Source: Harmothoe impar (taxonomy: Eukaryota; Annelida; Polychaeta; Phyllodocida; Polynoidae). From it: 64,000 bases of DNA. The stretch covers positions 13,793,418 to 13,857,417 of the forward strand of contig OX381707.1 of the NCBI GenBank assembly GCA_947462335.1. Reading direction: 5' to 3'. A program made the position numbers and the translations under genes. A model generated the notes under the pieces. That model was not told where the DNA came from, did not search any database, and saw only the letters and a list, made by a program, of their open reading frames with translations. Within the stretch, counting starts at the first letter, position 1. Every line of letters begins with the position of its first letter. Positions 1,790-61,966 of the stretch are shown piece by piece.

Positions 1790-4390
1790 CCATATCTTAA
1801 ATTCTACTGTAATGTGTTCAAAAGGTTATTTCAATATCATATTTGGAAGATTGGATGCAATGAAATATCCTTGATGGGCAAAAAGAGGCAATTTAAGGCA
1901 ATGCCATTAGAACAGATAAAGACTTTTACACAATATTTTAAGACTCATGTCTATGTCTATATGGTATTGTCCCCTTCTCTCTCCCCCTCTTTTCTCCTCT
2001 CCTTTTCGCCTTTTATTATTATTATTTTTTTTTGGGGGGGGGGGGGGGGAGGACGGAGCAAGGCCCGTCGCCCCCCCTGTATCCGCCAATGCATGTACAT
2101 GGTCAACGCACACATTTCCTGTACAGTATGTACACGTGTATGGAACAAGCTACTGATCACCAGCACAGTCTGATCAACTATTCATTACCACTCTACTGCA
2201 CTGTCAAACTCCATAACAAGCAGAGCAGCAACCGACATTATTGATTGTGTCTGATGGTCGCTCGTTTGCCTTTCATTTATCTGGTCATATTGACGGGTGT
2301 GCAAGGCAGGTATCTATTTATGGTTCATGCTGAAATTTACAATGGTCGTCAGGCCGAAACTTGAATAATTATTATTAAATTCCTAGGATTTTAACTATTC
2401 TGGAAAGGGGGTTTTAAGGGATTCTGAAAAGTGGTCAACTGCACCATTATTCAGCAGCCTATAGCGCCCAAACATTTTCCTCTCATTGTTTTACATGTAT
2501 ACAATTACATAGTAATTATTCTGTTCATTTTATTCCAGGGAATGTAAACCCAGTGCCTACTGCTATACATATATGTTGTTTGCAGCAATCTTTTCCATCA
2601 TGTCATTTGTCGGGTACATTGTATTAATAAATGAAGTATTTATGACTTTAAAATAAGGAAACAAGACAATAAGAAATTAGCTTTTTAGGGAAGTGAAAAA
2701 GATGAAGACCAACTTACCTTTTGGGCAGACATTATTGAATCAGCTGGTATCCTTGATGGTGATTACTTGTGTGATTAATGTGGTTAAGGTGACTATACTG
2801 ACATTCCTCCGCGTGTCTACACCTCCAGGCCCACCCCTGTACACAGCCTATAGTGGGGGTATCTGTGTGTGCCCTGTACAAAGGCACACACCCTGGAGGA
2901 AACACACGCACACACACCCCTTAATCTACAGGTGTCAAATTCCTCCAGTCCCTGGAGTCACCAAGAAGTCCACCTTTTTTTGAGGGAATGTTAAGGTCCA
3001 GGTTATTTCTGTTAGACACAGGAGGAGACAGCTAAGTGCACGTAATGCGTCCTGTCCTCCTCCAGCGTCAAGCCTGTCGTCAAGGCACTATTGATCACGG
3101 CCATGGGATATTCAGTGAGGCACGACGCATGGTGTCCGCCCCTCCCCCCCCCCCACACACACCCATCCACAACCCCCCCCCCTCACACACACACAAACTG
3201 AAAAAGTAAACTTGTCTCCAGACTCGTCGAAGTGACTATCATAAAATAAACAAATCAAAAGTTGTCTAACCTATCAGGTTACCATCCCACGAGTAGAATC
3301 TGGATCTGGCAAATGTCAGGTATTGGGCTCGCATATGCCAAGTGGGTCTTCTATCTCCAGCTAGAAGACCCGCTTCCTTGTCACTTGGACAAGTTTTTGA
3401 CTCGTTTAGTTCATGACCGTCACTTTTGAGTGCACTCACACTCTCCCGCTCCTGTCCCGCCGTGCACGGGAGTATCCTCATTATGCTAATTAGCACCCAC
3501 CCACGTGACCATGCCAGCACAGATCCTGGTCGATCACCCCCCCCCCCCCCCCACACACACACACCCTCCTGACATGTCCTGTGTTGATAGATAGCCCTAT
3601 CGCTTTCAGGGTGATTCTTAATACGTGATATCTGGGGAAATTCAATGATATCAGGCAACATTACATTTGTGTATGGCTGATACGTTTATTTCAAAATATG
3701 TTGTTGTGCTTGGCGGTTCACCCCCCTCCCCCTTAGCCCCCCCCCCCCCACACCTACCCACCCACCCATGCATATTAGAGAATGCCCCCGTCAAAGATCC
3801 ATACCTGATCGTTAGCATAATCTCTAAACATGCACTGTTATTTTATAAACACTCACTCTTGACACAAACCACCCAAGTGGGGGTGAAGTCAGGAGAGGTG
3901 TTAATCCCTCGGTGTATAGGTCATAGAACTGTTTAAATCATGGCGGATTACCTGATGGAGGAGGGGCTGGGGGCAAACATGCTTGGCACTGGTCGAGGCT
4001 CCATGAGCTTTATTAACCATTTTAGGTCCGCAAAGTGCTTTATCAATGTGTTGTTAATTAATGTGAGTCTAGTGGCTCTACTCACCTGAGCTGCATTCAG
4101 GCATCATGCCGGCCCGTCGGGTCCCTTGCTTTTTACTGGTGAGTTACTCGCATGGGCTGCATGCATTCATACATCGTGCCAACAAAGCTGATGACATGTT
4201 AAAGCAGCAATTGGTCCTCAAATGGTTATAAAGAATACACCAGAGGTGGTGGAAAGTGTGTGCATGCAGAGTGATTAAACTCTCGGCGGTTCCTAATATC
4301 AAACATCCACTTATAGTGCTGTAACGGGATGGTCTATGTGAGCAACCATTTTGTCCCCTATTTTGTTATAACGATGACAATTTTGCCGAT
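1790..4390. other. Intergenic DNA with simple repeats
   Basis: Contains poly-G/poly-C runs (about 2034-2050, 3150-3190, 3538-3552, 3734-3750) and CA-rich microsatellites next to several of them. No exon, RNA gene or element boundary could be supported. Confidence 0.5.
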
Positions 4391-4643: not shown

Positions 4644-4960
4644 AACCAGTATCACTCATCAGAAATGTTTGAAATGATACAAACAATGTGTTTTGATAGT
4701 TGGAGTCACACAAAAGCAAACAAGTTGTGTACAGTTGCGTTGGCAAGAATTTATTAGGACATCAAAGTATGCGTGGGGGAAATAAAGGTGGTGTAACATT
4801 TTGATGAATTCAATTCACCTTCGTGAATCAAAGAACTCAAACCGATATCAAATTTCGACTGAGGCCAGTCGTCCACTAACCGATGAAATGGCATTTTCTC
4901 TCCTTTAAAGACCGTTTTCCATCAGTTGGTCGATTTGCATTACCACACAAAGTTACCTAG

Positions 4961-6044
4961 GCCTAAAAGAAAAGTTGTATTCAGATAACCCGACCTACCC
5001 TATTCTTGGGGCCTACCTTATTTTTATTTTTTATCTTTTTATAGATAAACAAATTTGTGGTTCTAAAACGCAGTGAAAGCATTTTAGGAACATAAACTTA
5101 TATTAAAGTATGTCTATGTAGATACATCCTGAGGGTATTGAGTTTTGAAAGAGACAACGAGACAGCAGTGTCGCCACTCAATAATTTATTTCAGCACTTT
5201 TCCAAATCTTTATTTATTTATTTATACTTTATTTAGATGAAATATTTTATTTATACTTGATTTTCAAGAAAAGTGGAGGAATCAGCCCTAAATTACAGGA
5301 TTTCATACTTTATTTATACTTCGTTTACAAGAAAAGTAGAAATTTCTGGGGCAAATGGTTTATCTCTTAAGGGAAGCAATTTTTCCGCACTGACGCGCGA
5401 CAAGCAATTCTATCCCTACTTAATTTTAAAAAGCTGCCAAAAAAGTTACGCACATGTAAGATTTAAAAGAAATATAAGTTTTCAGCGACCGTGATTGTAC
5501 TTTATTTATACTTTATTTGAGCTGGATTTATACTTTATTTTGGTACATGACACATCATTTTCATGAAGGACTGGTGGCAACACTGAGACAGGCCCCAATC
5601 ATGAGATTTATATCACTGTTCAGTTCAAGTATGCCCCTATTGGCAAATGCCTAGTTAACAAGGGTATATTGGACCAATTTCGGCTATCACTGACACTATC
5701 GTGATCGATATCCCTACATTGTCCTAACATTAAGAAAGTTGACATCGGTGCAATCTGCCAAATATCATGTTGGTCCTGTCTTGGCTAAGCTCATGTCCCT
5801 TCCATAAAGTATGTACGCATTTTCCCCATAAAATAGACCCACCCCCCATGTTGCATAATGTACTCTTGTATAAGCATTCAGTGCATATAATATAATATCA
5901 GTTGATAGATTAATACAATGTGCTTAAAACACACTCATTCATCATTGAAAGACATACTTAGGAAGAATAAAAACAAAAAAAAACAAAATCGACTTACCTA
6001 CCCTACTTATTTTGGCCATGTTACCTGAATACAACTTTTTAGGC
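4961..6044. repeat. About 1.1-kb relative of the same MITE family
   Basis: The ends are GCCTAAAAGAAAAGTTG with TATTCAGATAACCCGACC and, inverted, GGTTACCTGAATACAAC-type sequence with TTTTTAGGC. Internally there is an AT-rich zone (about 5205-5540) with repeated TTTATACTTTATTTA blocks. I see no transposase. Its borders are inferred from the inverted ends only; the inside may be composite. Confidence 0.5.
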
Positions 6045-6048
6045 CCTA

Positions 6049-6156
6049 CCCAGTGGGCACAGAACATTGAATCAACATTGAAAACTGGTTGACAATGTTG
6101 ATTCAATGTTGTTTCAACGTTGATTCAACATTGAACTGAATTTTGTGCCCACTGGG
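6049..6156. mobile_element. 108-bp foldback MITE with TA target duplication
   Basis: Begins CCCAGTGGGCAC and ends GTGCCCACTGGG, flanked on both sides by TA. The interior is made of repeated CAACATTGAATCAACATTG-type blocks in both orientations. The TA duplication is what Tc1/mariner-type transposases leave; the family assignment is an inference from that alone. Confidence 0.75.
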
Positions 6157-7586
6157 TATATGCATTTACCCGTAGAGGCTTGCACGCGAGTCAGATCCAG
6201 CTGTCAATTGATACCAAACATACCTATATAGGTGCCGGCTTATACAATATAAGACCGTATTTAGTATACTATATTGGGGCCCTTGATTGGGGTGTCCTTA
6301 TGTCCCCTGTCGATTGTAAGAAATGTGCATGTTGCCATGTCAATTTTATGTATTGCCCATGTCAAAGTTGGGGGTGATCAGCAGGGGGAGGAGGGATGGT
6401 GGTTTGGAAGTGGTGTAAAAAAAAATCACCCTCTTTTCACGTGTTTTCAGAAAAACAACAACTTCACGTTACTATGCTTCAAAGGGCGCGTGCCGATTTC
6501 ACACGTGGGGAGGTGGGGTGAGGGGGGTGGGGTGTAGAACCGTGATGTGTATCAAAAACGTGATGTGTAGTAACTACTCAGCAGTTGCTCAGTTACTACA
6601 CATCACGGCTGACCATGCAAACGTGATGTGTATCAAATAAACGTGATTAGTAGTAACCATCCAACCGTGATGTGTAGTAGCTAACGTGATGTGTAGTAAC
6701 TTGAATTAAGCCACCTCCAACCGCTATCTGTATCAACAAACGTGATGTGTATCAACAAAGGGGGGCCAGGGGGGACCTCCCCCCATCCCAAAACAGGGAG
6801 GGGGGGTTGAATATGTTTGCCCCCCCCAAAAATATTTGCCCCCCCCCAAAAAAAAGACCCTATAATACAATACATAAAAATTCCCAAACCTACCTTTCCC
6901 AAATAGGAAAAAGTAGGGGCAGAGGGGTATGGGGTCCCAATCACAACTAGCGGGGGCTAAAACAATATCTTTATTTATCTTTCCAATATAACCCTGTGAA
7001 TGCGGCATCAAGCCTTAAGGCCGATAATTAAGGCTGTTTGGGGTAGGCCCCCTGTCCCCCCCCCCCCTAATGAAGATTTGATTCCTACACCTCTGGTCGG
7101 AGAGGAGGGAGGGAGGGCAGTATAAGCAATTTTTGCATAATTTCAATCTACAATCTTAAGGCTTGGGTTATGGTGTTGTTAAGATCATGCATCCTCAAGA
7201 TTATTGACTGAGGATTAAGATTATATACAATCTAGATTGGTTTGGACGTGGCGTTCGTTCCTCCCAACACTACATACCAATCTGACCGAGGTAAGTTTGA
7301 AATTCCCTCTCTGTGCCTGGTGCTGGTCATGTGATCCAATCTGAGTGATTTCATTGGCTGCCAGAAAGCTGGTCTAGCATTTCAGGTTTGTGTTTGACTT
7401 TATTTCACCATTTTATTTATTTACATTTTAATAAAAGTTTGAGTTTTCTAAGGAAACTCTTAGATAAATAGAGTTACTCTATTTATTTTTCATAAATTTA
7501 GAATAGGTGCAGGTCCAATCTTATGATTGGCCCATGGTGTTTTGTAGTCATGCCAATGATATGGCCACACTCAGTTTAGTATCTAT

Positions 7587-7613
7587 GTTTCGGCCCTCTC
7601 GGGGACTCATCAG
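7587..7613 (-). ncRNA. Hammerhead-ribozyme-like core
   Basis: Read on the minus strand the segment gives CTGATGA, then a stem-loop GTCCC-CGAGA-GGGCC with one U-C mismatch, then GAAAC: the conserved catalytic core layout of hammerhead ribozymes. Four nucleotides on each side can pair as stem I (ACAC with GTGT about 25 nt downstream), but I could not place a canonical NUH cleavage triplet, so it may be decayed. Such motifs are known in Penelope-like and other retroelements of invertebrates. Confidence 0.35.
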
Positions 7614-7857
7614 GTGTAATCTAGGGGTGGATTAAATGTTTATATTTAAAGAGGAAATTTATTTTTGTCTTAGACAACATATATCTCCTCTATGACCAGT
7701 TTGGGTTTACCAAACTATTTGTTTTTTCAGACTCAGGCTTTTCATACCAGGTGGCACCTGGGTAGGCCTTCTAATGGCTACTTGGTCCAGGTAGGGAAAC
7801 TTTGTGATTTTCAGGTCAGTTGGAATGGAGCTTTAGGTTAGACTGGGGGGGAGCTCG

Positions 7858-8031
7858 GTTGAGGATTTTTCCTGACCATTGTTTTTTACCGATTGGGCAA
7901 ATTTCTAAGTTTGAAATTTTTCCCAATTTTTTGCCGGTTTGGCGTGGGAAACCGGCAAAAAATTGGGAAAAATTTCAAACTTAGAAATTTGCCCAATCGG
8001 TAAAAAACAATGGTCAGGAAAAATCCTCAAC
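7858..8031. repeat. 83-bp inverted repeat with 8-bp loop
   Basis: The left arm 7858-7940 (from GTTGAGGATTTTTCC to TTTGCCGGTTT) is matched base for base by the right arm 7949-8031; the loop is GGCGTGGG. I found no mismatch by eye. It can extrude as a cruciform or, if transcribed, form a long dsRNA hairpin. It lies within the 6533-8231 element. Confidence 0.9.
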
Positions 8032-8417
8032 TTATAAACAATCTAGAATATTTGTCCATGAATTATAAAATTCTTTGATACATATCACGTTGATACAGAT
8101 CACGTTATTTTGATACAGATCACGTTGTGTTGATACAGATCACGTTGTGTTGATACAGATCACGTTTGCAAAGTCAGCCGTGATGTGTAGTACTACACAT
8201 CACGGCCCTTGATACACATCACGGTTCTACAGCGGGTGTAAAAAATTGCATGCGCTGCATCCAGTAATCAGAAAACATTTCCTATATATTAATTTGTCCG
8301 ATAAACGCCAGTGGACGATGATCATTGGGCTATATAATATAGGCACTGTGGTAACAGTAGTGTAGATACATTGACATACAACTAAGAACCTCGTATTATA
8401 ACAATGAGAATCTAACC

Positions 8418-10028
8418 TAGGGGTCGTCCATAAACGATGTCACGCCCTAGGGGGGGTCTGAAATTTGTGACAAAGCGTGACAAGGGAGGTGTCATGTTTT
8501 GAAAAAAAAGAACATTTTTATGTCAGCAACATGTGAAGTTCTTGCATACTATTATACCACAGCTGTCTCAAATATCTAAGTTTATAGCTACCTACCCAAA
8601 AAGGAAAAGAAGCATAATTTGATTATGAAATATGTTCCATGTTATTGTGGGGTGGTGAGCAACAGCCTACAAATTTATGCCTCGAGTGCCAATTACAAAG
8701 GTGAGGTCCCATCATGAAAGTGTAGGGGCCGGATTCCCCGTGCGTCGGTGGCAAACCTGCAAGGGGGTACCACTCGGGTAATCCCGCTCCCCTTTGAACC
8801 ATACTGATCCAGTAACATGAAACACAGTCTATCTGACAAGGGGATGTAACTCAGTGGTAATCGCTTGCAATCCCTTGGCAAGCGGAAGGCCCCGGGTTCG
8901 AGTCCTGGTGTCTCAGAAAAAGTCATTTCCGGAGAATCCATGTCCCTCACAAAAGCAAGAATTTTTCTTGGTTACAAAGATACAAGGTGACAGTCAACTA
9001 AAATCAAATACAATTCAAGGTCCCGGTTTCTGGCACTTACTAAAGATTTCGGGACCCTTATACCTCCAGTGCTTATACAACATCAGCACTTTATTAATAG
9101 CAGGCGCACATGTAGCCATTTAAAAAGTTGCAACTGCACATGATTCCACAGGTGCATGTATCGGCACAGAGTCGGGATGAGGCTTATTTGAGATACTTTG
9201 GTATTATAAGACTACACTAAAGTCACCATAATCAGATTGTCGGTGCAGCTTATAGGAACGCCGTAATGTTGAGGTGTGGCTTAGGCCTATATATGAGTTA
9301 GGCTTACCTACAGGAGATTTTGGAGTAATTCTCTTCTTTTTGGGGAGTGTGGGTTAAGATTATTTTCTCAGGTAATTGGTTGGAGGGGTTTGGAAAATCC
9401 ACCAAGCCAGCCCCGCTCCCCCAAGGCAAGTAATTAATGTCTGTCCTTGTTTGTTGATATCAAGTCCCAGGGCCCCAGTTCTTGGGCCCCATTGGTGGGT
9501 TAGGCCGGGTCCACCAATAGGGGTTCATTTTGGGCCATTTTTGATCTTATTGCGCTAAAAAGGGGTTCAATTTTGTCCCATTTTAGGGGGTATCCCACTG
9601 TTAAAATGGGGTTCGAGTTTGGCCCATTTAGATGGGTGTCCCAATAAGCTATAACAAGTATAAGGGGCCTGATTTCTTCACATTTAAGGTAGTTAGCCTG
9701 CCAAAATGGGGTTGTTTTGGTGAATTTTTATCCTGCCAAAAGGGGGTCCAAATTCAGGGTGATTTACACACATGGTATCCATAAATGTGGGAGTGCCCCC
9801 CCCCTCCCTAGCATCAAGTATAGACTCCTTTTTGGGTTTTCCCCATGGGACCAGGTACTAGCAACTGTTTTCATTCATGATCGAAGAGGGGGTAGCTGCT
9901 TTTTTGCCGTCATGCCTGGAGGGGGGGTCAAGCAAAACGTCACAAAGCGTGACATGGGGGGGATGGGGGGGGGGGGGGGGTCAAAAAAGGGCCAAAAAAG
10001 TGTGACATCATTTATGGACGGCCCCCTA
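8418..10028. mobile_element. Non-autonomous DNA element, TIR TAGGGGTCGTCCATAAA
   Basis: The left end TAGGGGTCGTCCATAAACG, followed by ATGTCACGCC, is matched inversely at 10,000-10,028 by ...ATCATTTATGGACGGCCCCC. Near both ends the CACAAAGCGTGACA block recurs. The interior includes a tRNA-like sequence at 8840-8915, reiterated AAAATGGGGTTC-type blocks at 9550-9740 and a long G run at 9967. There is no transposase frame. The type of DNA transposon is not determined. Confidence 0.6.
8840..8915 (+). repeat. tRNA-like SINE head (A and B boxes)
   Basis: Contains an A-box-like GTAACTCAGTGG and a near-consensus B box GGTTCGAGTCC with a pairable T-stem (CCGGG/CCTGG). An anticodon-like stem CGCTTGC/GCAAGCG carries a 9-nt loop instead of 7 and the acceptor arm pairs poorly, so it is a tRNA-derived repeat or pseudogene, not a functional tRNA. 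Confidence 0.5.
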
Positions 10029-39137: not shown

Positions 39138-39381
39138 GGTGGGTCAATATGATGCCATTTCCGTTCACTGTGCAGTTTTCTGTGCAGGTATATTCTCTAG
39201 TTTGACCCTAGATCACCAGGGGACCTTTGTCTCAGATTGGAACAAGTTAGATCAAATTGTCCTAAAACGAACAAAGGTGTTGCCTGACTGGGGCAAGAAC
39301 CATCAACCTTTGGATATGAAAGCATGCTATCTGCCACTGCGCTATGGAGTCCGTGGTGGTCATTCAGAAATCATACATAAC
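39138..39381. repeat. Left part of the TTAA MITE hit by the Polinton-like element
   Basis: Preceded by TTAA and starting GGTGGGTCAATATGATGCC, it aligns with the inverse of the 21,566-22,172 copy. It breaks at CATAAC (39,376-39,381), the left target-site copy. Confidence 0.85.
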
Positions 39382-39839
39382 AGTAGTATAGTATGTATCG
39401 GAACGGGACTATAGTTAAGTACTGTTTATTACTCAATCGACATGCAGCCAATCAGAGGCCTCCATTTGGTCACGTGACCGGAAGTGACCTACTTAGGGGA
39501 TTAGTGGTGACGTCACGTGACCTAGTTAGCCAATCAGAGGCCTCCATTTGGTCACGTGACCGGAAGTGACCTACTTAGGGGATTAGCGGTGCATTCTGGG
39601 TAACCCTGCAGCCAATCAGAGGCCTCCATTGGGTGACCGGAAGTGACCTACTTAGGGGATGGTGCATTCTGGGTAACCTACTGACCTACTTAGGGGACCG
39701 GAAGTGACGTCATATGACCTAATTTAGGATCACGTGATCGGAAGTGACCTGATGAGTCACGTGACCGGAAGTGACGTCACACGACTTAATGGCCAATCGG
39801 AAGCGACCTGATTGATCACGTGACCGGAAGAAGAAGAAG
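39382..39839 (+). repeat. Left terminal inverted repeat of the 9.5-kb element
   Basis: Almost identical to the inverse of 48,441-48,896 over the outer 330 bp (one difference seen: CCCTGCAGCC against CCCTGAAGCC), with small rearrangements further in. It contains reiterated GTCACGTGACCGGAAGTGAC, GACCTACTTAGGGGA, CCAATCAGAGGCCTCCAT and GGTGCATTCTGGGTAACC blocks. It ends in a GAA repeat. Confidence 0.9.
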
Positions 39840-40050
39840 TTTTTTTTTTGTTTAGGATCCCGTGACTGGAAGCGACGTCGTCACATGAGTGACGCTTTAA
39901 GAGACTGCGCGACTTACTAGTAAAAGAAGCCGTATGATAATAAAAACACAACAATATTTTCTTTTAATTTATTTTTATTTTTTTTTTTCAATCTTGATAA
40001 ACACTCTATTTTTGAAAAGATGCACACGCTTATTTTTTTTTTTTTTTTTT

Positions 40051-43000
40051 TCATATCTCTAAAGGACTCGTTGTCACACCGTCAGAATGCACGCGACGCT
40101 TATAATACAAGTAGCGCACGCCGTCTTTCTCTATGGTGTAGGTGACCATTTTGTTTCGCACCACTTTGAAATTTCTATTTACAGCAATGAGAGTTTTTCG
40201 TTGGCGAAGAACATCCAAGAAGGCGTCTGGTTCCTGGGGGTTTTGTTTCTTCTGTACGCCTTTTGCACTCCATTTTTTGGATTTTCTTTCACCGGTGTCG
40301 CTGACTCGATCGTAGCAAATGTAAGTCTTAGGGTTGAGACTTAGGATCCCGTCACCTTCCCACTCCGCTTTCATGAGCCCCGAAGTTCTCAGATCGTGAA
40401 GGTACCGTCTCTCACAACATCCGCCGGGCGGCGCACACCATTCTCGCACTCTTTCCGTTTTTGTCTTCACGAAAAGCTCTAAGTGCTCGTCGCACACCGC
40501 TGTCGGAAGCCACTTTCGTTTCTCTCTGAAGTACGTCTCTCTCAGGCGAGGTTTCACTAGGTCATCCAACGTGGCACCGCTGAGAGCCATGTAAAGACTG
40601 TCGGTGTCCATTTGACAAAGGGCATAATCGCGCCGATCGACGAATCTATCCAAGAAGTCGTATGTGAACTCTAACATTTTCAACTTCGCGTACTGGTATA
40701 CCATGAACCCTATCTGAATAGGGAGGTTGTTCTTGACCGTTTTCGGTTGTAGTTCGACTTCAAACAGATCGGAAGTCAACTCGGACGCCTTTTTGAAGCG
40801 CCACGAATTGGCCAATAGTTCGAACTTCCGACTGTCAGTGTATCTCACCGCCGTGTGTTTTTCTTTGTTGCAGATTGTTTTACCGTACGTAGCGTTTCCC
40901 ATTAACTTGTAACAGTCTGACAGAATTTTCTCGTTCTCGTTCACGTCGCCACGTCTTCGCGCCGCCGTCACTTCGTCCGCGAAACCGGCAAAGGAGCGTT
41001 TAGGTAGGTATTCTACCACCAGCTGCACTTTGGTGACTATCAAACCGTGCTCTAAATACCACTTGAGAAGCGGCGTTCCCAAGAGAATATTTTTTCCGTG
41101 GTAACTCCCTATCAGACATCTCTGAGGCGTGCTCAACAGCTTTTCTTCCTGCGCAAAGTCTGACATGTGAGGGCCTATGTCCGATTTTGAAACGGTCGCG
41201 TTCTTGAAAACGGGGGTCATTTCTTCGAAGTACTCTCGTAGGTGAGGCGGCGTAGTGATGGCCACTTGAACTAAACCGAACATTTTCTCCTCTTTCACAG
41301 CGGAAAGGATGTCGCTCTCGCTCATCGCGTTTCGAGACACTTTCAAAGCGTCAACCTTCCAGCGTTGTTGGGAGGCCTTGACCCGCTCATCTCGACGCTT
41401 CATCTCTCGCCATTCGCACTCCCACACGACGACCAGCTTGTAACCTAACGCTTTCAAGTAAGCGCTTACTCTGGTCGTTCTGTCGCGTCTCTCCTCTCTC
41501 AGTGAAGCGCACTGATATCGGTGCGACGGTATGCACTCGTGAGCGTGGAACCAACACCCGTGAAACTGGAAAACCGTATTAGAGGCCGCGTGAAATCCGT
41601 CCACGCGAATTCTCCGACAGCCTACCGCCATCTCGCCGCCGTTCAGAGCGTGGCGCAGTTTCACGTCGCGGTCGTGCTCTACGAAGCGTAACCACTCCAA
41701 AGCGCTGTGAGAGTTTCTTTGCCTGATTTCGGGCTTGAACTCGGTCTCGGGCCGTCTCACCGCGTAATAGCCCGTGCAGTGCGCTTCGCTCATGCAGCGC
41801 AAGTACAGAGAGTTAGCGTCTAGTCCTAGGATGTGTTGGCACGGTCTCGCTTCTTCGCCGTACTTGTGCTCCCTTATCCGCGTGGTGCCCTTCTCGTGAA
41901 ATCTATGGAAGATGATGGAAGGACCGCCGACTAGATTCTCTTTGATCAGAGCGTGGAGGACGGCGTCGAACTGGGGAAACGTTGTGAACGCGTCTTCTAG
42001 GTTTTGGAAGAGGAAGCGTAAAGTCAAACCGGCGAGAGAAACTCCGTCTTTCAACATGTCGATGCCGCGATCTTGGAAAAATTTAGCGTGATTTTTCAGA
42101 GCTTCTATGAAAGGTTTCACGTCTTTGTTGTTGTAGTGGATCAAGTAGTCTTCCATAGTTTGCATCTTCTCGTCGGACCAAACTTTCTGACATGCGGCGT
42201 AGTCGGATTCGGACATTTTGACGCCCGTCAGCTCGCTGTCGAAAGCCGATCTCGGCGGCAGCGTTCTGTTTGCCAGTTTCCTGGTAGACGTCATCCATTC
42301 GTAAGGAAAGTGACCTTTCTCTTCGTTCCTGGTGAAAGCTCGCAAATAGGTCGCGTAGTTGTAACCGGGTGCCAAATAGTTGACTACGTCCAAGAAAACC
42401 GTGTGCTGTGTGTAAACCGCCAAGTATTGATTGCTTCTCTTTATGACGCTGAATTCTTGGTTTCTTCGGTCTCCGGAGGCGAAGAACGAGTGAAGGCGTA
42501 TTTTGATCAGGTTCAAGTCGTAACGCCCCGAGTTGAAGCCCACCACTGGAGCTTGACGGATGTATCTCAGAAGACGCTTCTTCAGTTGAACTAACGGGTG
42601 TCTGGTCTGAGCCGCAGCGAAGCCGCCTGGAGAAGGGGTGGTGAACGTCGCCTCCTCCAGCAGGAGAGCTTCACCTATCGCCGCATCTAACTTCGCTAAC
42701 GTCGGTCGGTAAAGTTCTAGCACAGCTTCCCCGATCGCTTTGGCGTTCTCGTTTATGTGATTTAAAACTCGGTCCAACAAGGGGTCGGAATCTGCGTCGG
42801 ACGCTCTGACGAAGCAGACGGGCCCCTCCCACCCCGGAAAGTCGGATGCGACGCTAGCCGACAAAGGGACGTGATCCCACAGCAGGGACACGTGCTCCGT
42901 CGACGGTTCTTTGCACGGTCTGAAGAAAGCCTCGAAATCGAAGGCGATCTTGTAAGGGTAGATTCCGGAATGTCCGTCGGGGGGAAAAATGGAGAAGTCT

Positions 43001-44178
43001 GCTAGCGCTTCGAAAATCGTTCTCGAATTTTGGTAGATGCCACCTACGTAGCGCAACTTGACTTGTCGGCAAGAGGAAAGCTGGTTCCTGTGTCTCTTCA
43101 GCAAGAACTCGGTGGTGAACGCCGCCTTACACTTGCAACATTCGTATATGCCCGCGTACGCGTTGAAGTCCGTGACGAGAGAGACGTGCAAACCGCCTTT
43201 CGCCGTCAGGTGTAGGTTGACTTTACCTCGGGCGGCCACAGTTCTGGAAGGCGGTCTGATCAGAGTAACGCGTCTTCTCAACTTCCGCCCCGGCACTTGA
43301 CGCGACGCGGTGTAAACCGCTATTTGTACGTCAAACAAGTTCTCTAACGCGGGTAAGTCGCGGATGTTCAGACCCGGAAAGGATTCAGGTGTGGCAGCGG
43401 GACAGAACTGACGTAACAAATCTGAAGCGCGCTTGCTGGTGTTGTATAAGTGAAAGGAAATGCAGCGGAAGATGCAGAGGTTGTCCTTGTTGGGAAAATC
43501 TAACACGCCGCTTCTCTTTCCAACTCGACCGGCCTGAGTGATCCTACCGCCTATGGGGAATTCCCCCGGTCCCATGTAAACGCAGATGTTCAAATTGGTA
43601 GGAAAAAGAACGTGCCACTTGGTGTCAGCGTCGCAAAGTTTCCGTACCTCCTCGCAAGCGACGGTGTTTTGCATCTTTGAGAGGAGCTCTTCCAAAGTTT
43701 CTGAATTAGTTACAGTAGGGAGCGGTTGTATGAGAGTTGCGTTGTTCTGGGAGGCGTGGAAGTAGCGCAGTTTGCTCTTGTCTTCTCTGTGTTGTAACAG
43801 TAAGCCTACCGAGAAACCCACTTTGTATCTGAATCTTTGTGTCAAGTGAATGCGACGCATAGTATCTACAGCGTCACTCAACTCGCCGGTTGGTAGCCTG
43901 AAGTTTGTTACACTCACGCGAGTCCCGTGCATCCTGACGCCCGTTTGTATCGCAGGCCAATTCGCCGTGAACGTTTCCTCCCCGTTCGGTACAGCACATA
44001 TGCGCGGAGGGACGGTCACCCCGTCCAGAGATTCGCGTTGACAAGCGCTCTTTCGGCAATCCCCTTCGCCGCATAGAGGGCAAAACTTAGCCACTACTCT
44101 ACAATTTTCTACGTGTCTCTCGTGGTTGTACGCTCTTTTAAACATTTTGAAACACTTTTCGCATACGTACTGTGTCAT
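40051..44178 (-). CDS. Type-B (protein-primed class) DNA polymerase
   Basis: 1,375 residues from the ATG at 44,178 (the frame is open slightly further upstream, but only via GTG). Domains: two cysteine/histidine clusters at 6-46 (CEKCFKMF, CPLCGEGDC); an OTU-like DNLCIFRCISFHL (about 232-244); another C2H2-type finger at about 347-370; exonuclease motifs I (DFE, 414-416), II (NSGRYDLN, 549-556) and III (YNNKD, D686); polymerase motif A (LDANSLY, D787), motif B (KLMGNATYG, 1091-1099), motif C (MDTDS, D1191 and D1193) and a KxKG-like SAKGVQKK. Between motifs A and B, residues 856-926 (IRVDGFHAASNTVFQFHGCW ... VVWECEW) form the restriction-endonuclease-like insert known from Polinton and bidnavirus-type polymerases. 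All catalytic residues are present, so it is probably active and would copy the element from its terminal repeats. No frameshift. The stop is followed by an A-rich tract. Confidence 0.93.
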   Translation of the reverse strand: MTQYVCEKCFKMFKRAYNHERHVENCRVVAKFCPLCGEGDCRKSACQRESLDGVTVPPRICAVPNGEETFTANWPAIQTGVRMHGTRVSVTNFRLPTGELSDAVDTMRRIHLTQRFRYKVGFSVGLLLQHREDKSKLRYFHASQNNATLIQPLPTVTNSETLEELLSKMQNTVACEEVRKLCDADTKWHVLFPTNLNICVYMGPGEFPIGGRITQAGRVGKRSGVLDFPNKDNLCIFRCISFHLYNTSKRASDLLRQFCPAATPESFPGLNIRDLPALENLFDVQIAVYTASRQVPGRKLRRRVTLIRPPSRTVAARGKVNLHLTAKGGLHVSLVTDFNAYAGIYECCKCKAAFTTEFLLKRHRNQLSSCRQVKLRYVGGIYQNSRTIFEALADFSIFPPDGHSGIYPYKIAFDFEAFFRPCKEPSTEHVSLLWDHVPLSASVASDFPGWEGPVCFVRASDADSDPLLDRVLNHINENAKAIGEAVLELYRPTLAKLDAAIGEALLLEEATFTTPSPGGFAAAQTRHPLVQLKKRLLRYIRQAPVVGFNSGRYDLNLIKIRLHSFFASGDRRNQEFSVIKRSNQYLAVYTQHTVFLDVVNYLAPGYNYATYLRAFTRNEEKGHFPYEWMTSTRKLANRTLPPRSAFDSELTGVKMSESDYAACQKVWSDEKMQTMEDYLIHYNNKDVKPFIEALKNHAKFFQDRGIDMLKDGVSLAGLTLRFLFQNLEDAFTTFPQFDAVLHALIKENLVGGPSIIFHRFHEKGTTRIREHKYGEEARPCQHILGLDANSLYLRCMSEAHCTGYYAVRRPETEFKPEIRQRNSHSALEWLRFVEHDRDVKLRHALNGGEMAVGCRRIRVDGFHAASNTVFQFHGCWFHAHECIPSHRYQCASLREERRDRTTRVSAYLKALGYKLVVVWECEWREMKRRDERVKASQQRWKVDALKVSRNAMSESDILSAVKEEKMFGLVQVAITTPPHLREYFEEMTPVFKNATVSKSDIGPHMSDFAQEEKLLSTPQRCLIGSYHGKNILLGTPLLKWYLEHGLIVTKVQLVVEYLPKRSFAGFADEVTAARRRGDVNENEKILSDCYKLMGNATYGKTICNKEKHTAVRYTDSRKFELLANSWRFKKASELTSDLFEVELQPKTVKNNLPIQIGFMVYQYAKLKMLEFTYDFLDRFVDRRDYALCQMDTDSLYMALSGATLDDLVKPRLRETYFREKRKWLPTAVCDEHLELFVKTKTERVREWCAPPGGCCERRYLHDLRTSGLMKAEWEGDGILSLNPKTYICYDRVSDTGERKSKKWSAKGVQKKQNPQEPDAFLDVLRQRKTLIAVNRNFKVVRNKMVTYTIEKDGVRYLYYKRRVHSDGVTTSPLEI

Positions 44179-44204
44179 GTTTTTTTTCACTCGGTTACCA
44201 ACTA

Positions 44205-44365
44205 CTTAGCCGTCTAACTATCTATCTATCTATCTAGCCATCTATCAATCTGTCGTCTATGTAACTATCTTTCTGTCTGCTGTCTGTGTATCCGTCTGTC
44301 TGTCTGTCTGTCTGTCTGTCTCATACAGCGTACGTCAAACGCTGTGTGTGTGTGTGTGCGCGCGT
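44205..44365. repeat. Tetranucleotide and dinucleotide microsatellites
   Basis: CTAT, TGTC and GTGT/GCGC runs fill the 204-bp spacer between the polymerase start and the stop of the next gene upstream. No TATA box is obvious here, so the polymerase may be expressed from a joint transcript with the PC4-domain gene. Confidence 0.8.
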
Positions 44366-44381
44366 GAGCGTTGAGCGTCTC

Positions 44382-45968
44382 TCATTCCGAATCTATGCCG
44401 AGATATTTCAGAATGATCTCTGTTTTGTCATCCAACTCTTTGAGCGCTCTGGCGGACAGCGTCACCCCCTGCTGTGTGGGTTTTTTGTCAGGACCTTCGT
44501 ACTTGCGCACGTGGACGAGGTTCTTACCGCTGTAGTAGCTCACAGCTGCGTACACTTCGCCCGCCTCATCCAGCACTGCGAACCAGGGGGTGTGATTAGG
44601 TTTTCCTTGCGCGGCCGCTGTGTCGCGTATGCGCACCACTGCGCGGATATCGGCGATGCGTGCTATGAGCTCGCGCAGCGCGTCGGCCGTGAAGTGCACT
44701 CGCTTGCTTCTGGTCAGAGACGCCTCTTTCACCTGGCCGTCTTTTGTGTAGCGCGGCCTCCTAGACAGTCTAGCCACGTCCTCCCAGATCTCCAGCGTCA
44801 AAGCTCCGTCTAAGCAGAACTCTAACCCGAGTGTTTTCTCTGCTTCTTCTCGTCCATCTCCTTCTTTTTCTTGTATTTTTCTCTTCTTAGTGGGCCTTGT
44901 TGTTCTGGAACTCACCTTAGAACGTTTCACACCCGCAGGATGAGTAACACCATCAGCGTGAGCTGAATCAGCAGCAGAACCGATAGCAGGAGCAGCGTCA
45001 GCGCTGGTGGTATCGGAGGTCTCGTTGTTGGAACAGCGCAGCCACACGCCGTCCGTGCTGTGTGTAGCGGTAGAAGATGAAGCGCCGCCGCCGCCCTCGT
45101 AAGGTGGCGGTGAGGGCAGTCGCCACGGACCGGACGGGGGGGCGCTAGCAGTGGAGGAAGTGAGGTCGAAAGGTCGAAGAGGGAAGCCGAAAAACGTACC
45201 GCTCACCCCTTGCCCTTCGGGTTCTTCGTACGCCTCGTCGTCAGCGTCGTTCTCTGTCTCACCCTGTTGCTGCTCCTCCTCCTCCTCTTCTTCTCGGTTC
45301 AGGGGCTGAGTGTCCGAATAGCTGTAACTCTCAGCGCGAGCGGCGTCGAGGGCGTCCGTCGATGTAGTGGTGGAGGAGAGGGGCTGTGCAACGTGCGGCA
45401 GGTCATCAAAGTCATCAACAGTAGTGGGGAGGTAAAAACCCGGTTGCCAGTACTGCGCTGTGCCAGGAGCGTTGTCGTCAGTAGTAGTAGCAGTAGCAGC
45501 AAGTGCAGCAGAAGCAGCCGCAGCAGGCGCAGCCGCAGCAGACGCAACAGTAGCAGGCGCAGCAGCAGCCTCAGCAGGCGCAGCCGTAGCAAGCGCAGCA
45601 GTAGCAGGCGCAGCAGCAGCAGCAGCAGCAGCAGCAGCGGCAGGCGGGACGGCGGTAGCAGCGGCAGCGCGCTTAGCAGCAACGTGTACCGTCGCGAGTG
45701 TAACAACGTCGCTAGCACGACGACTGCTACCAGTAGTACTACTAGTACTACTACCACTACTACTACTACTGCTACTACTAGTGCTACTGCTACTACTACT
45801 ACTACTACTACTGCCGCGAGCGCTCGCTACAGCAGGAGGGTGATAAGACCAACCGGCTGCGGCGGTAGTCTCATGTTCAGTAGCAAGAGCAGGCACTGAC
45901 GCTAAACGAACGCTGTTCCGCGTAGTCTTCTTGTTCTTGAACGCCGCTAGCTGTTGTCTTTTGCTCAT
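44382..45968 (-). CDS. Low-complexity protein with two C-terminal PC4-like ssDNA-binding domains
   Basis: 528 residues from the ATG at 45,968 (MSKRQQLAAFKNKKT); a longer frame begins only at TTG. The first 350 residues are disordered: a Ser/Thr run (about 55-90), an Ala-rich block (110-170), an acidic E/Q run (about 230) and Pro/Ser segments. A basic nuclear-signal-like stretch (TRPTKKRKIQEKEG) precedes two related domains: about 380-447 (LSRRPRYTKDGQVK ... SKRVHFTADALRELIARI) and 461-525 (WFAVLDEAGEVYAAVSYYSG, KNLVHVRKYEG, GVTLSARALKELDD). The strand order, the IRKY/VRKY phrase and the closing helix match the PC4/SUB1 ssDNA-binding fold. Likely role: coating displaced single strands during polymerase-B replication, or transcription. 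A TATATAAG lies about 60 bp upstream. The PC4 call is by eye and should be tested by profile search. Confidence 0.75.
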   Translation of the reverse strand: MSKRQQLAAFKNKKTTRNSVRLASVPALATEHETTAAAGWSYHPPAVASARGSSSSSSSSSSTSSSSSSSSGSSTSSTTGSSRRASDVVTLATVHVAAKRAAAATAVPPAAAAAAAAAAAPATAALATAAPAEAAAAPATVASAAAAPAAAASAALAATATTTDDNAPGTAQYWQPGFYLPTTVDDFDDLPHVAQPLSSTTTSTDALDAARAESYSYSDTQPLNREEEEEEEQQQGETENDADDEAYEEPEGQGVSGTFFGFPLRPFDLTSSTASAPPSGPWRLPSPPPYEGGGGASSSTATHSTDGVWLRCSNNETSDTTSADAAPAIGSAADSAHADGVTHPAGVKRSKVSSRTTRPTKKRKIQEKEGDGREEAEKTLGLEFCLDGALTLEIWEDVARLSRRPRYTKDGQVKEASLTRSKRVHFTADALRELIARIADIRAVVRIRDTAAAQGKPNHTPWFAVLDEAGEVYAAVSYYSGKNLVHVRKYEGPDKKPTQQGVTLSARALKELDDKTEIILKYLGIDSE

Positions 45969-46028
45969 GGTGGTGACTGTAGAGAGCAGCAAAAAAGAAT
46001 GAGTGAGTGAATGGAGGTTTCCAAGCCC

Positions 46029-46036
46029 CTTATATA
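46029..46036 (-). promoter_or_regulatory. TATA box for the PC4-domain gene
   Basis: TATATAAG on the minus strand in a GC-rich context (GGCGTATATAAGGGGC), 61 bp before the ATG; transcription would start near 46,000, giving a short leader. Confidence 0.6.
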
Positions 46037-46044
46037 CGCCTTCT

Positions 46045-46435
46045 CGCTTCTAGAGCTAAGCTACTTACCGACCCTGTTCAGCTGCCGCGGGCTGGCCGGC
46101 GGCCATTCACAAAGAGAAACAAAAAGACATAAGGCATGACGTTTTCAGCTGGATCCCTTTCCCCCCCCCTCTTTTGAGAGATCGACTGTGATGATGAGCT
46201 AAGCCGCTTACCACCCTGTTCAGCAATTCAACGCGCATTAGCTGTATAAAGGGTTAAGCGGTTGCTGCCTGCCGTCGACTGACCGGCGGCGGCCATTCAC
46301 AAAGACATAAGGTATGACGTTTTCAGCTGGATCCCTTTTTGAGGGATCCACTGTGGTGAGCTAAGCCGCTTACCACCCTGTTCAGCCATTCAGCGCGCGT
46401 TAGCTGTATAAAGGATTAACGGTAACGGTGATGAG
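46045..46435. repeat. Intergenic repeated blocks between the divergent genes
   Basis: GAGCTAAGCCGCTTACCACC followed by CTGTTCAGC occurs three times (about 46,052 diverged, 46,197, 46,359). GGCCATTCACAAAGACATAA with GTATGACGTTTTCAGCTGG and ATCCCTTT occurs twice (about 46,100 and 46,291), and GTTAGCTGTATAAAGG-type sequence twice (46,238 and 46,398). The repeats lie between leftward and rightward transcription units and may be a shared control region or origin. Confidence 0.75.
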
Positions 46436-46926
46436 CTTACAGTGTGTATACAAAAAAAAACTACAGGAGGCGTGTGGCGTGAAGCAGGACCCCCCTAAGA
46501 CGAACGTGTCTGTCTGTGAGTAGAGGCGTGTGCATGTGGTGAGCGACTTAAGTGTAAGACAAAAATCGCCACCTCCTGCCGTGGTGAGTAGACCGGGCCG
46601 GCCAGGCGGGCGGGCGGCCGGCTAGTTCAATAGGGAGGGGTGACAGCTGCCTAAGGCTGTGCATGAAAAAAAATCCGATTTTCACCTGACCTCTGACGTT
46701 TGTTACAATGAATGTCAGAGGGAGGGAGACGTCCTCGGGTAGGGGGTAGGAGGTATTAAGGCTATGAGTGAGGAAAAAACACCGTTTTCAGCTGGTCTCC
46801 ACGGATAGCGATGCCACACCCCCTCGTCATCTAAGCTCTTAAGGAGCGGAGCGGCTGAAAAAGCGTCATGCGGACAGGGTGCTAGACAGCTGGAGCGCTG
46901 TTGGAAATGGGATTAAACTCCCTCTG

Positions 46927-46934
46927 TATAAAAA
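46927..46934 (+). promoter_or_regulatory. TATA box for the death-domain gene
   Basis: TATAAAAA (context CTCTGTATAAAAAGCTC) about 146 bp before the ATG at 47,073; transcription would start near 46,960, and the leader contains the CCACCGCC trinucleotide repeat at 46,990-47,060. Confidence 0.5.
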
Positions 46935-47072
46935 GCTCTCATTTCTGTTGGAAAAAAAACATATCACCTCTGACCCCAGTAACGGCTACTACCACCACCA
47001 CCGCCACCACCACCACCGCCGCCACCGCCGCCGCCGCCGCCGCCGCTGCCGCCGCCGCCAAGACGAGACGAG

Positions 47073-47822
47073 ATGGCTCAAGCTATTCCACTTTCAAGCT
47101 CGCCTTCACCGCCCGGTGCGCCTGAAAAAAAGTTAATGCGGCTTGACGACGTGAGACGCGGCGCGAGGCAGCAGACCGATGATGGGGAGACCCGACAGGT
47201 AGGACAGCGGCGGTTAGCCTATAGCGACGCCTTGCTTCGTCAACTAGGTAAAGAGTTGAGCGGCTGTTGGAGAGAGTTGGGCAGTAGCTTAAAAGTCAGC
47301 GCCGCCCGTATGGATGCTCTAGTAGAGCGCAGTGTCAAGACACCGGAGGAGCTGTGTACGGCGATGTTCCGAGTGTGGTGGGGTGAAACCCCGCATCGTC
47401 ATAGATGGGGCGAGCTCGGTCGCGTCTTCACCCGCATAAGACGCATGGAACTGTTGGCTCAGTGGATGGCCCTTCTCCACAGACAGGGGTTGGATTTCGA
47501 AAACCCCGACTCGCGCGCGATGCATAAGCACTTGGGCACCCTCGGCAGACGTCTGGGTAGCAGGTGGAAAGAGGTGGGGGACCATTTAAAATTGTCGCCT
47601 GAGAGGTTAGATAAGATCGCTGAAGAATGCGAATACGGAGGAAGTCCCGCTGAGTGGGCCTTCCGAGTGTTGAAAATGTGGCAAGATGAAGCTGACGGCG
47701 CCGGCGGTACGCCTTTTGAACTCCTTCGAGTGTTGACTGAGGACATGGGAAAGTTTGGCCTCGGCATCGCGATATTACTTGACTTTATCAAGCAAGAAAC
47801 AACGAGAACGACGGACATGTGA
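47073..47822 (+). CDS. Tandem death-domain protein
   Basis: 249 residues, ATG in good context (GAGATGG). After a 45-residue polar leader come two similar helical domains. DD1 is about 52-134 (LGKELSGCWRELGSSLKVSA, ARMDALVERS, MFRVWWGE, then a W-containing helix and LLAQWM). DD2 is about 152-238 (LGTLGRRLGSRWKEVGDHLK, LSPERLDKIAEE, FRVLKMWQDE, LLRVLTEDMGK). The LG..W.xLG..L.LS...ld.i pattern, with a later MLxxW-like helix, is the death-domain signature of FADD/MyD88/ankyrin-type proteins. No enzyme domain, signal peptide or membrane segment is present. Adaptors of this kind relay apoptosis and Toll signals, so a mobile replicon carrying two bare death domains may use them to block or redirect host signalling (inference). 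The frame is intact, and it is the only rightward gene of the element. Confidence 0.85.
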   Translation: MAQAIPLSSSPSPPGAPEKKLMRLDDVRRGARQQTDDGETRQVGQRRLAYSDALLRQLGKELSGCWRELGSSLKVSAARMDALVERSVKTPEELCTAMFRVWWGETPHRHRWGELGRVFTRIRRMELLAQWMALLHRQGLDFENPDSRAMHKHLGTLGRRLGSRWKEVGDHLKLSPERLDKIAEECEYGGSPAEWAFRVLKMWQDEADGAGGTPFELLRVLTEDMGKFGLGIAILLDFIKQETTRTTDM

Positions 47823-48440
47823 ATTGTTGTGTTTTATTTTCATACGTCTTCTTTATTAGTAAGTAAAAAAAAAAAATATCATAACAATTAAGACGCGCGA
47901 TCTCTTAAAGTGTCACTTCCTCCAGTCGCAGCTGATCGCCTCATCGCAGCACGTGATAAACAAAAAAAAAACGAAGAGACACGCTTCTTCCTCTCGAGAG
48001 GAAGAAGCGTGTCTCTCGATTGAAATCTTTTTCTTTTCTTTTTTTCTTAAAAGAGACAAACGCCCCTTAGAGTGCTCCCCCACCCCCCTAGAGTGCCCCC
48101 CTCCCCCCTCCCCCCCTCCCCCCCACCACCCGCCCCATGCATCCTAAAAGCGCCCCCCTCCCCATGCATCTTAAAGAAGCCCCCCTCCCCCCCTCCCCTC
48201 CCCTCCCCCCCTTATACACTCTAAAGAACGCTTCTACCTAGTTCAATAAGTCACTTCCAGTCGCTCGTAAAACAATAAAAAATGAAAAAAAATGAAAAAA
48301 AAACTTATATCGTAGTGTTTTTTATTAGTTTACCGAAAAAAAATAAGAGACTCGCCTCCTCCTCCAAAAAAAAAAGATATCACATTTTAAAGCCCGTGAC
48401 CCCTTAAAGACGCTCATCTCTTCATTAAGTCGCGTGACGT
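47823..48440. other. Non-coding right arm of the element
   Basis: Holds the likely 3' end of the death-domain transcript, a 40-bp palindrome, C-rich tracts with AGAGTGCCCCC-type units (48,065-48,215) and A-rich runs. No further gene, in particular no integrase, is visible. Confidence 0.7.
47976..48015. repeat. 40-bp perfect palindrome
   Basis: GAGACACGCTTCTTCCTCTC followed directly by its exact complement. It lies about 150 bp after the death-domain stop and just after an A-rich run, so it may act as a transcript-end hairpin or a cruciform. Confidence 0.9.
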
Positions 48441-48441
48441 C

Positions 48442-48472
<31 letters not shown>

Positions 48473-48896
48473 CTTCTTCTTCTTCTTCCGGTCACGTGAT
48501 CAATCAGGTCACTTCCGGTCACGTGATCCTCAATGAGGTCACTTCCGGTTGGCCATTAGGTCATGTGACGTCACTTCCGGTCCCCTAAGTAGGTCAGTAG
48601 GTTACCCAGAATGCACCATCCCCTAAGTAGGTCACTTCCGGTCACCCAATGGAGGCCTCTGATTGGCTTCAGGGTTACCCAGAATGCACCGCTAATCCCC
48701 TAAGTAGGTCACTTCCGGTCACGTGACCAAATGGAGGCCTCTGATTGGCTAACTAGGTCACGTGACGTCACCACTAATCCCCTAAGTAGGTCACTTCCGG
48801 TCACGTGACCAAATGGAGGCCTCTGATTGGCTGCATGTCGATTGAGTAATAAACAGTACTTAACTATAGTCCCGTTCCGATACATACTATACTACT
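48441..48896 (-). repeat. Right terminal inverted repeat of the 9.5-kb element
   Basis: Inverse of 39,382-39,839, with a longer CTT run (48,441-48,488) at its inner edge. Same reiterated CACGTGACCGGAAGTGAC blocks. Confidence 0.9.
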
Positions 48897-48902
48897 CATA
48901 AC

Positions 48903-61454: not shown

Positions 61455-61966
61455 TGTAACAGGTCAGTGAAAACGTCGAGCCCCACGGGGAGTCGAACCC
61501 CGGTCCCTCCGCTCCGGAGTTGAGAATGCTACCGCTGCACCACAGGGCCAGCTGCTTCTCACTGCTCTGCTACGGTACTTGAGCTACCACAGGCAGGCAA
61601 TGCGCTCTCCACGCACGCTTGGGCTTCCCCGAGCGATACGTGCCCGCTACATTACTCCCCTTCAGACATCTGCTAGGTCCTTGGAGGCCACGAAGACCAC
61701 CTAGCAGAAGCTGAACAAGCTCAAGCACCCAACCCAGGTTCGGTGGATCCTGGTCAAACGTGCACCAGTGTAACAGGTCAGTGAAAAAACGTCGAGCCCC
61801 ACGGGGAGTCGAACCCCGGTCCCTCCGCTCCGGAGTTGAGAATGCTACCGCTGCACCACAGGGCCAGCTGCTTCTCACTGCTCTGCTACGGTACTTGAGC
61901 TACCACAGGCGGGCAATGCGCTCTCCACGCACGCTCGGGCTTCCCCGAGCGATACGTGCCCGCTAC
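61455..61966. mobile_element. 512-bp element with 197-bp direct terminal repeats (TRIM/SINE-like)
   Basis: Two nearly identical direct repeats, 61,455-61,651 and 61,769-61,966, both starting TGTAACAGGTCAGTG and ending CGTGCCCGCTACA (TG...CA), enclose 117 bp. Outside, the flanks rejoin the dispersed repeat of 22,210-22,540. Each terminal repeat contains a minus-strand tRNA-like sequence (61,478-61,549; 61,794-61,865) with a perfect T-arm (CGGGG/CCCCG around TTCGACT), a pairable D-arm and acceptor arm but a poor anticodon arm. Without protein or clear primer-binding site it could be a TRIM retroelement or two SINE copies recombined in tandem. Confidence 0.65.
61478..61549 (-). repeat. tRNA-like sequence in the first direct repeat
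   Basis: A 72-nt cloverleaf-like stretch with B box GGTTCGACTCC; the anticodon loop has A where U33 is required and its stem is mispaired, so it is not a working tRNA. The second copy (61,794-61,865) is identical in this part. Confidence 0.55.

Follow-up and report, generated by a model that had tools for sequence, protein, structure and literature searches.

The 64,000-nucleotide window analyzed here, from the polychaete Harmothoe impar (contig OX381707.1, positions 13,793,418 to 13,857,417), contains an integrated 9,515-bp element with Polinton-like ends (39382-48896) that codes for a DNA polymerase (PolB), a PC4-type protein, and a tandem death-domain (DD) protein. It is a member of a young, very abundant mobile family, and it shares its terminal 28 nt with a second class of elements of about 10.5 kb, which code for an RVE integrase; the copy read also has a capsid-like frame. 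The layouts, the shared ends, the differing target duplications, the youth of the copies, and, in the parts read, the complementary gene sets are all observed directly. We consider it probable that these are the two parts of a split Polinton, in which the window element serves for replication and the 10.5-kb partner supplies integration and capsid functions. The broader proposal, that this is a bipartite polintovirus present in thousands of copies, with two obligately complementary segments mobilized via their shared ends and no undivided parent left, seems to us evenly poised between true and false.

The 9.5-kb and 10.5-kb classes together amount to about 20 kb, roughly one ordinary Polinton, and jointly hold a polymerase, an integrase, and a capsid protein (the last by a motif). 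Because the ends are shared, both classes are young, and their genes are complementary, a two-part element is the simplest account, and it provides a source for the integrase implied by the 6-bp duplications of the window element. In such a system both segments would end in identical sequence, with the 9.5-kb segment providing the protein-primed polymerase, the PC4-type protein, and the DD protein, and the 10.5-kb partner providing the integrase and capsid-like protein. The proteins of each class would then act on the segment of the other: the polymerase would copy either segment, starting at the shared ends, and the integrase would insert the copied linear molecules of either segment at new sites, giving rise to the 6-bp duplications.

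A fixed 9.5-kb layout in young and abundant copies

Polintons are defined here by terminal inverted repeats, a 5'-AG, and a 6-bp target duplication, and all three are present in the window element and in 18 of 18 further insertions. Both borders are exact, the outer letters being AGTAGTATAG... on the left (39382) and ...CTATACTACT on the right (48896), and the ends, the 5'-AG, and the CATAAC duplication described in an initial annotation of this DNA are all borne out. The 456-bp inverted repeats given there fit the left side and are too long for the right; 342 nt are near-perfect (Table 1), beyond which the repeats continue as gapped, repeat-rich similarity to 39839 on the left (458 nt) and 48476 on the right (421 nt). 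Tandem units of 82 bp within the terminal repeats (39444-39660 and 48618-48832) carry CCAAT, CACGTG, TGACGTCA, and CCGGAAGT words, and in this density of words they appear to resemble a dense promoter or enhancer. The GC content of the element interior is 0.517, versus 0.413 to 0.414 in the flanks.

The hallmark Polinton/Maverick genes, namely, RVE integrase, capsid genes, packaging ATPase, and cysteine protease, are not found in the element, in agreement with the initial annotation: a six-frame Pfam scan of its entire length gives no match to rve integrase or to any ATPase, protease, or capsid family, and, apart from the three genes and what lies antisense to them, every open frame is 85 aa or shorter. 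We note that PolB itself falls under the cut-off in the six-frame scan and that the partner's capsid-like frame is also not recognized by Pfam; it is therefore the list of open frames that speaks against a capsid gene. Ordinary Polintons are 15 to 20 kb long (PMC5718144); the window element is 9.5 kb, and 39 of the 41 end pairs described below are 10.5 kb or less.

The host genome (1.51 Gb, 736 contigs) was searched with the left 459 bp, and 40 of 911 candidates were scored, all of them at 100% identity. Twenty of these 40 copies were sampled. Eighteen, all independent insertions, have both ends within the sequence sampled; the other two (L031 and L032) are set aside. All 18 have the same integrase-less layout, with lengths of 9,504 to 9,733 bp and a perfect 6-bp duplication each, and the 18 duplications all differ, both mutually and from the CATAAC of the window. 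The frames are complete in 17 of 18 copies for PolB, 17 of 18 for the PC4 gene, and all 18 for the DD gene. Pairwise differences in PolB amount to about 3 bases in 4,125, or about 0.08% (153 pairs, including the window and omitting L033), with means of 1.00 synonymous and 2.11 other changes; the corresponding means for the DD gene are 0.91 and 0.21 (171 pairs), and these changes are too few for a claim of selection on either gene. As the sampled copies were chosen by a 100% match over 459 bp, they are the youngest ones, and their divergence should not be read as that of the family at large. Lengths of 9,707 to 9,733 bp are found in six of the 18, owing to an approximately 185-bp duplication in the stretch between the divergent genes in five and to a duplication nearer the right end in one (L035). 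L031 to L033 (G000:C2:109991535-110014155) are nested in a tandem array whose repeat unit measures 6,315 bp, with the same TACTAG duplication, within the Ser/Thr repeat of another copy's PC4 gene; this array seems best read as a single insertion multiplied afterwards. The initial annotation had proposed a working, recently mobile lineage rather than a random deletion product and had suggested a comparison of copies; the three-gene layout, the missing integrase, and the presence of individual 6-bp duplications prove constant in 18 of 18 independent insertions. A single deletion derivative is thus ruled out.

The family is large. With a distant DD protein as the query, 145 of 4,042 candidates were scored, and 137 of the 145 have no internal stop. 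The terminal 28 nt occur 5,823 times in forward and 5,837 times in reverse orientation in the host genome, and a reversed control occurs 0 times in both; if every end belonged to a whole element, there would be at most an estimated ∼5,800 elements, making up ∼57 Mb and thus close to 4% of the genome. Ends were paired using 100 listed positions in the first 5 Mb of contig C1, a stretch richer in ends than average, which contains 41 neighboring pairs and 18 unpaired ends. Pair lengths fall mostly at 8.7 to 9.9 kb (28 pairs) and 10.3 to 10.5 kb (11 pairs), with one pair of 13.2 kb (13,245 bp) and one of 15.9 kb (15,926 bp). The sole DD match in these 5 Mb, among the 145 scored, is inside a 9,424-bp pair, and an unpaired outer couple spanning 20,074 bp is, by its length, a 10.5-kb element enclosing a 9.5-kb copy (L030).

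The long pairs bear on a different origin, in which an undivided Polinton with the same ends (e.g., the 15.9-kb pair) supplies everything and the 9.5-kb and 10.5-kb classes are amplified deletion derivatives. It would also be suited by PolB relatives with about 50% identity whose contigs, at 16.6 and 17.6 kb, are as long as undivided Polintons, and undivided relatives may exist. We nonetheless regard it as unlikely, with long pairs being just 2 of 41 and perhaps containing another insertion, as does the 20,074-bp nested couple, and with the 9.5-kb copies read and the scored integrases being uniform, with complete frames. No longer parent with the same ends and the interior of the window element was seen, the interiors of the 13.2-kb and 15.9-kb pairs being outside the scope of the analysis.

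A 10.5-kb class with the same ends

The partner copy read is a 10,534-bp pair (C1:492661-503194), of which offsets 4,941 to 8,940 (4 kb) and 2,501 to 3,000 (500 bp) were covered. The frames in the 4 kb are on one strand throughout. One codes for an integrase of 399 aa, which scores 50.1 bits against rve (cut-off 32.6) and 18.5 bits against Chromo, under the cut-off of 25.1; two others, of 404 and 147 aa, belong to no family. A further frame, at least 302 aa long, we take to be a Polinton-type major capsid protein from the motif around YPYRAYLEGLLNY, an assignment that no library confirmed. No window protein matched within these 4 kb. The 500-bp segment has stops in all six frames, and its best match to the PolBs compared is only E 0.078. 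Stop positions limit the open frames in the rest of this copy to about 2.6 kb, versus 4.1 kb for the polymerase gene, and an intact PolB therefore does not fit in it.

The scored copies of the integrase are uniform. Searching the host genome with it gave 7,848 candidates, of which 109 were scored, all at 99 to 100% identity and with open 399-aa frames. Three of the 109 are in the first 5 Mb of C1. One is that of the copy read, 5,259 bp from its 28-nt end; another belongs to a 10,457-bp pair, whose end is 5,180 bp away; and the third has an unpaired end at a distance of 5,234 bp. None of the three lies in a 9.x-kb pair, as determined by comparing coordinates by hand for the integrases scored. 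There are thus two classes with the same ends, compared over 28 nt, and with complementary core genes, as judged from 4.5 kb of one partner copy. The initial annotation had named integrase and capsid genes between the same ends as a sign that the window element is an internal-deletion derivative; same-ended elements with an integrase and a capsid-like frame do exist, but the window element is one of two complementary multi-copy classes rather than a single derivative. Its view of a fixed integrase-less mobile lineage holds, but the family does not stand alone, as an integrase-bearing class shares its 28-nt ends.

Several points weigh against a split Polinton. We infer, rather than observe, that the partner integrase acts on the 9.5-kb element, and the 15.9-kb and 13.2-kb pairs could be undivided parents. 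The gene content of the partner is that of 4.5 kb of one copy, and its ATPase and protease content is assessable only within that sequence; the capsid-like frame matches no family and is called from a motif. The remaining pairs of 10.3 to 10.5 kb are classed by length, one also by an integrase match, and most of the 8.7- to 9.9-kb pairs are likewise classed by length alone. Finally, the identity of the ends between the classes is established over 28 nt only.

Proteins and other features of the window element

The PolB is, judging from its residues, a protein-primed-class polymerase, as was initially proposed. In a whole-protein scan it scores 29.8 bits against Pfam DNA_pol_B_2 (cut-off 25.8), and the exonuclease and palm residues inspected are invariant in 29 aligned rows, save one row that is gapped at the last three. 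At residues about 869 to 940 it carries a Vsr-type insert; a profile built from 17 PolBs hits Vsr endonucleases of known structure at 8.5e-8, and six positions, which we presume to be the Vsr active site and zinc ligands, are invariant in 29 of 29 rows. This conservation lends something to the idea that the insert is itself a cutter with which the element self-integrates, needing no integrase. We find that very improbable: Polinton integrases leave 6-bp duplications at varied sites and AG ends, the pattern found here, and an integrase-bearing partner class exists. Moreover, group I Mavericks regularly carry a Vsr-type insertion of about 140 aa in PolB and do possess an integrase (PMC10328495), and the window PolB has this group I insertion. 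Priming and OTU domains are described for protein-primed polymerases of the Polinton type (PMC11071308), and OTU-type positions Cys235 and His331 are present in PolB, with Cys in 27 and His in 28 of 29 rows. We note that residue 973 of PolB (40054-44178) is Ala in the window and Asp in the 28 other aligned PolBs.

The PC4-type protein scores 21.9 against the PC4 family over its entire length, under the cut-off of 25, and 25.8 when the final 88 residues are scanned alone. The tandem PC4-like domains initially proposed are not supported: the N-terminal half has no Pfam match, the score between the halves is equaled by 273 of 1,000 shuffles, and there is one PC4 domain, at the C terminus. The most likely role of the protein is either to coat single strands or to drive transcription. 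Since single-stranded DNA (ssDNA) is what PC4 domains bind, and protein-primed replication usually requires an ssDNA-binding protein, we favor the coating role. In contrast, the proposed tandem death domains stand up well, with Pfam Death matching the DD protein in two separate stretches (32.5 bits, cut-off 22.6) and the homology between its halves scoring higher than any of 1,000 shuffles (0/1,000). The nearest solved chains, both weak, are FADD for the first domain (E 0.017) and RIPK1 for the second (E 0.0085). Predicted structures are poor (mean pLDDT 51 for DD and 43 for the PC4 part), and a fold search with the DD model gave nothing under E 1, with a Fas-FADD chain, ankyrin-G, and TNFR1 death domains among the listed entries. 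Most likely, the DD protein blunts host death or immune signaling.

Table 1. Positions of features of the 9.5-kb element in the window
Feature	Position	Strand	Description or basis
Target-site duplication CATAAC, left	39376..39381	.	Sequence
Left terminal inverted repeat, 342 nt	39382..39723	+	2 mismatches to right repeat
PolB, 1375 aa	40051..44178	-	Pfam DNA_pol_B_2
PC4-type protein, 528 aa	44382..45968	-	Low-complexity Ser/Ala/Thr region, acidic stretch, basic KKRK stretch, C-terminal PC4-type (ssDNA-binding) domain
TATA-box-like word upstream of PC4 gene	46030..46036	-	
Stretch separating divergent genes, with duplicated 66-nt unit	46120..46419	.	
TATA-box-like word upstream of death-domain gene	46927..46933	+	
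Tandem death-domain (DD) protein, 249 aa	47073..47822	+	Pfam Death, two stretches; halves homologous
Perfect 42-nt palindrome without loop, between death-domain gene and right end	47975..48016	.	
Right terminal inverted repeat, 342 nt	48555..48896	-	
Target-site duplication CATAAC, right	48897..48902	.	Sequence

Frames flanking the element include one that matches LDL-receptor class A and leucine-rich repeats and another that matches rhodopsin-type seven-transmembrane receptors, which points to an animal host. Two tRNA-like matches of equal score, without an assigned amino acid, are present at 61478-61549 and 61794-61865 of the window; they are perhaps a tRNA-derived repeat.

Relatives, known systems, and implications

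The nearest neighbor of the window PolB in the tree is P0001, followed by P0002 and P0003 and, further out, by P0004, P0006, P0005, and P0022. Several relatives are on contigs of 9.3 to 10.1 kb and others on contigs of 14 to 17.6 kb, although these sizes are only a hint, as two sister rows of the tree have contigs of 9.6 and 16.6 kb. No relatives were found among bacterial and archaeal contigs, and scans of IMG/VR virus contigs, from which records of the window's own genome are possibly excluded, were equally negative for PolB, DD, PC4, the end sequence, and the capsid-like frame.

Searching the host with PolB gave 6,280 candidates, of which 37 were scored, and revealed further PolB families whose frames are long and open. 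Four PolBs from these (L009, L010, L011, and L018) fall in a separate clade, and behind PolB at all four loci there is a frame of 262 to 279 aa with weak ATPase matches, all under the cut-off. The two scanned of these PolBs, L009 (1-4740) and L011 (1-4653), end in a NADAR-like part (31.8 and 29.1 bits, under the cut-off of 35.1). Other sources of proteins may therefore exist in the host, as would suit a 9.5-kb element that is a hyperparasite (satellite), replicating itself but relying on the 10.5-kb class or other Polintons for integrase and perhaps for capsids, with the partner's polymerase coming from elsewhere. However, the four PolBs placed belong to another clade with no shared end demonstrated, and the identical 28-nt ends of the two classes favor mutual use; we give the hyperparasite little credence.

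A split Polinton has a likeness in the Bidnaviridae, whose genome is in two segments, although these are single-stranded DNA viruses of parvovirus descent, and we know of no integrase in them. They also have a Polinton-type PolB (PMC11071308). There is also a close likeness to group I Polintons/Mavericks (class Polintoviricetes), with which the window element shares the protein-primed PolB, the Vsr-type insert, the OTU-type Cys/His, inverted repeats, 5'-AG, and 6-bp duplications, and the 10.5-kb partner shares the RVE integrase. In contrast to these, the genes here are divided over elements of ∼9.5 and ∼10.5 kb, and the window element has PC4 and tandem death-domain genes, with integrase, ATPase, protease, and capsid not found there. 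Adintoviruses/meldviruses likewise have a PolB with an OTU-like domain, and their retrovirus-like integrase has a C-terminal chromodomain, the integrase here being on the partner and its chromodomain weak; they are described as single genomes, and no split is mentioned in the part of the source available (PMC11071296). Cytoplasmic and mitochondrial linear plasmids and transpovirons are also linear, with a protein-primed polymerase or a derivative and no capsid genes (PMC11071308, PMC10328495), but they are not integrated high-copy elements of animal genomes with target duplications.

A literature search for bipartite, segmented, or multipartite Polintons found none among the papers listed, although it covered few subscription papers and is not proof that such elements are unpublished. 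Polintons are usually viewed as single units that hold polymerase, integrase, and capsid together. If the split is real, this would be a segmented member of the Polinton group, its two families complementing each other, both abundant and very young, within a large animal genome. It would offer a natural case for how genome division arises and persists, as well as for the spread of a replicon that lacks a capsid and carries a death-domain gene, and the near-zero divergence of the copies makes it testable in living tissue.
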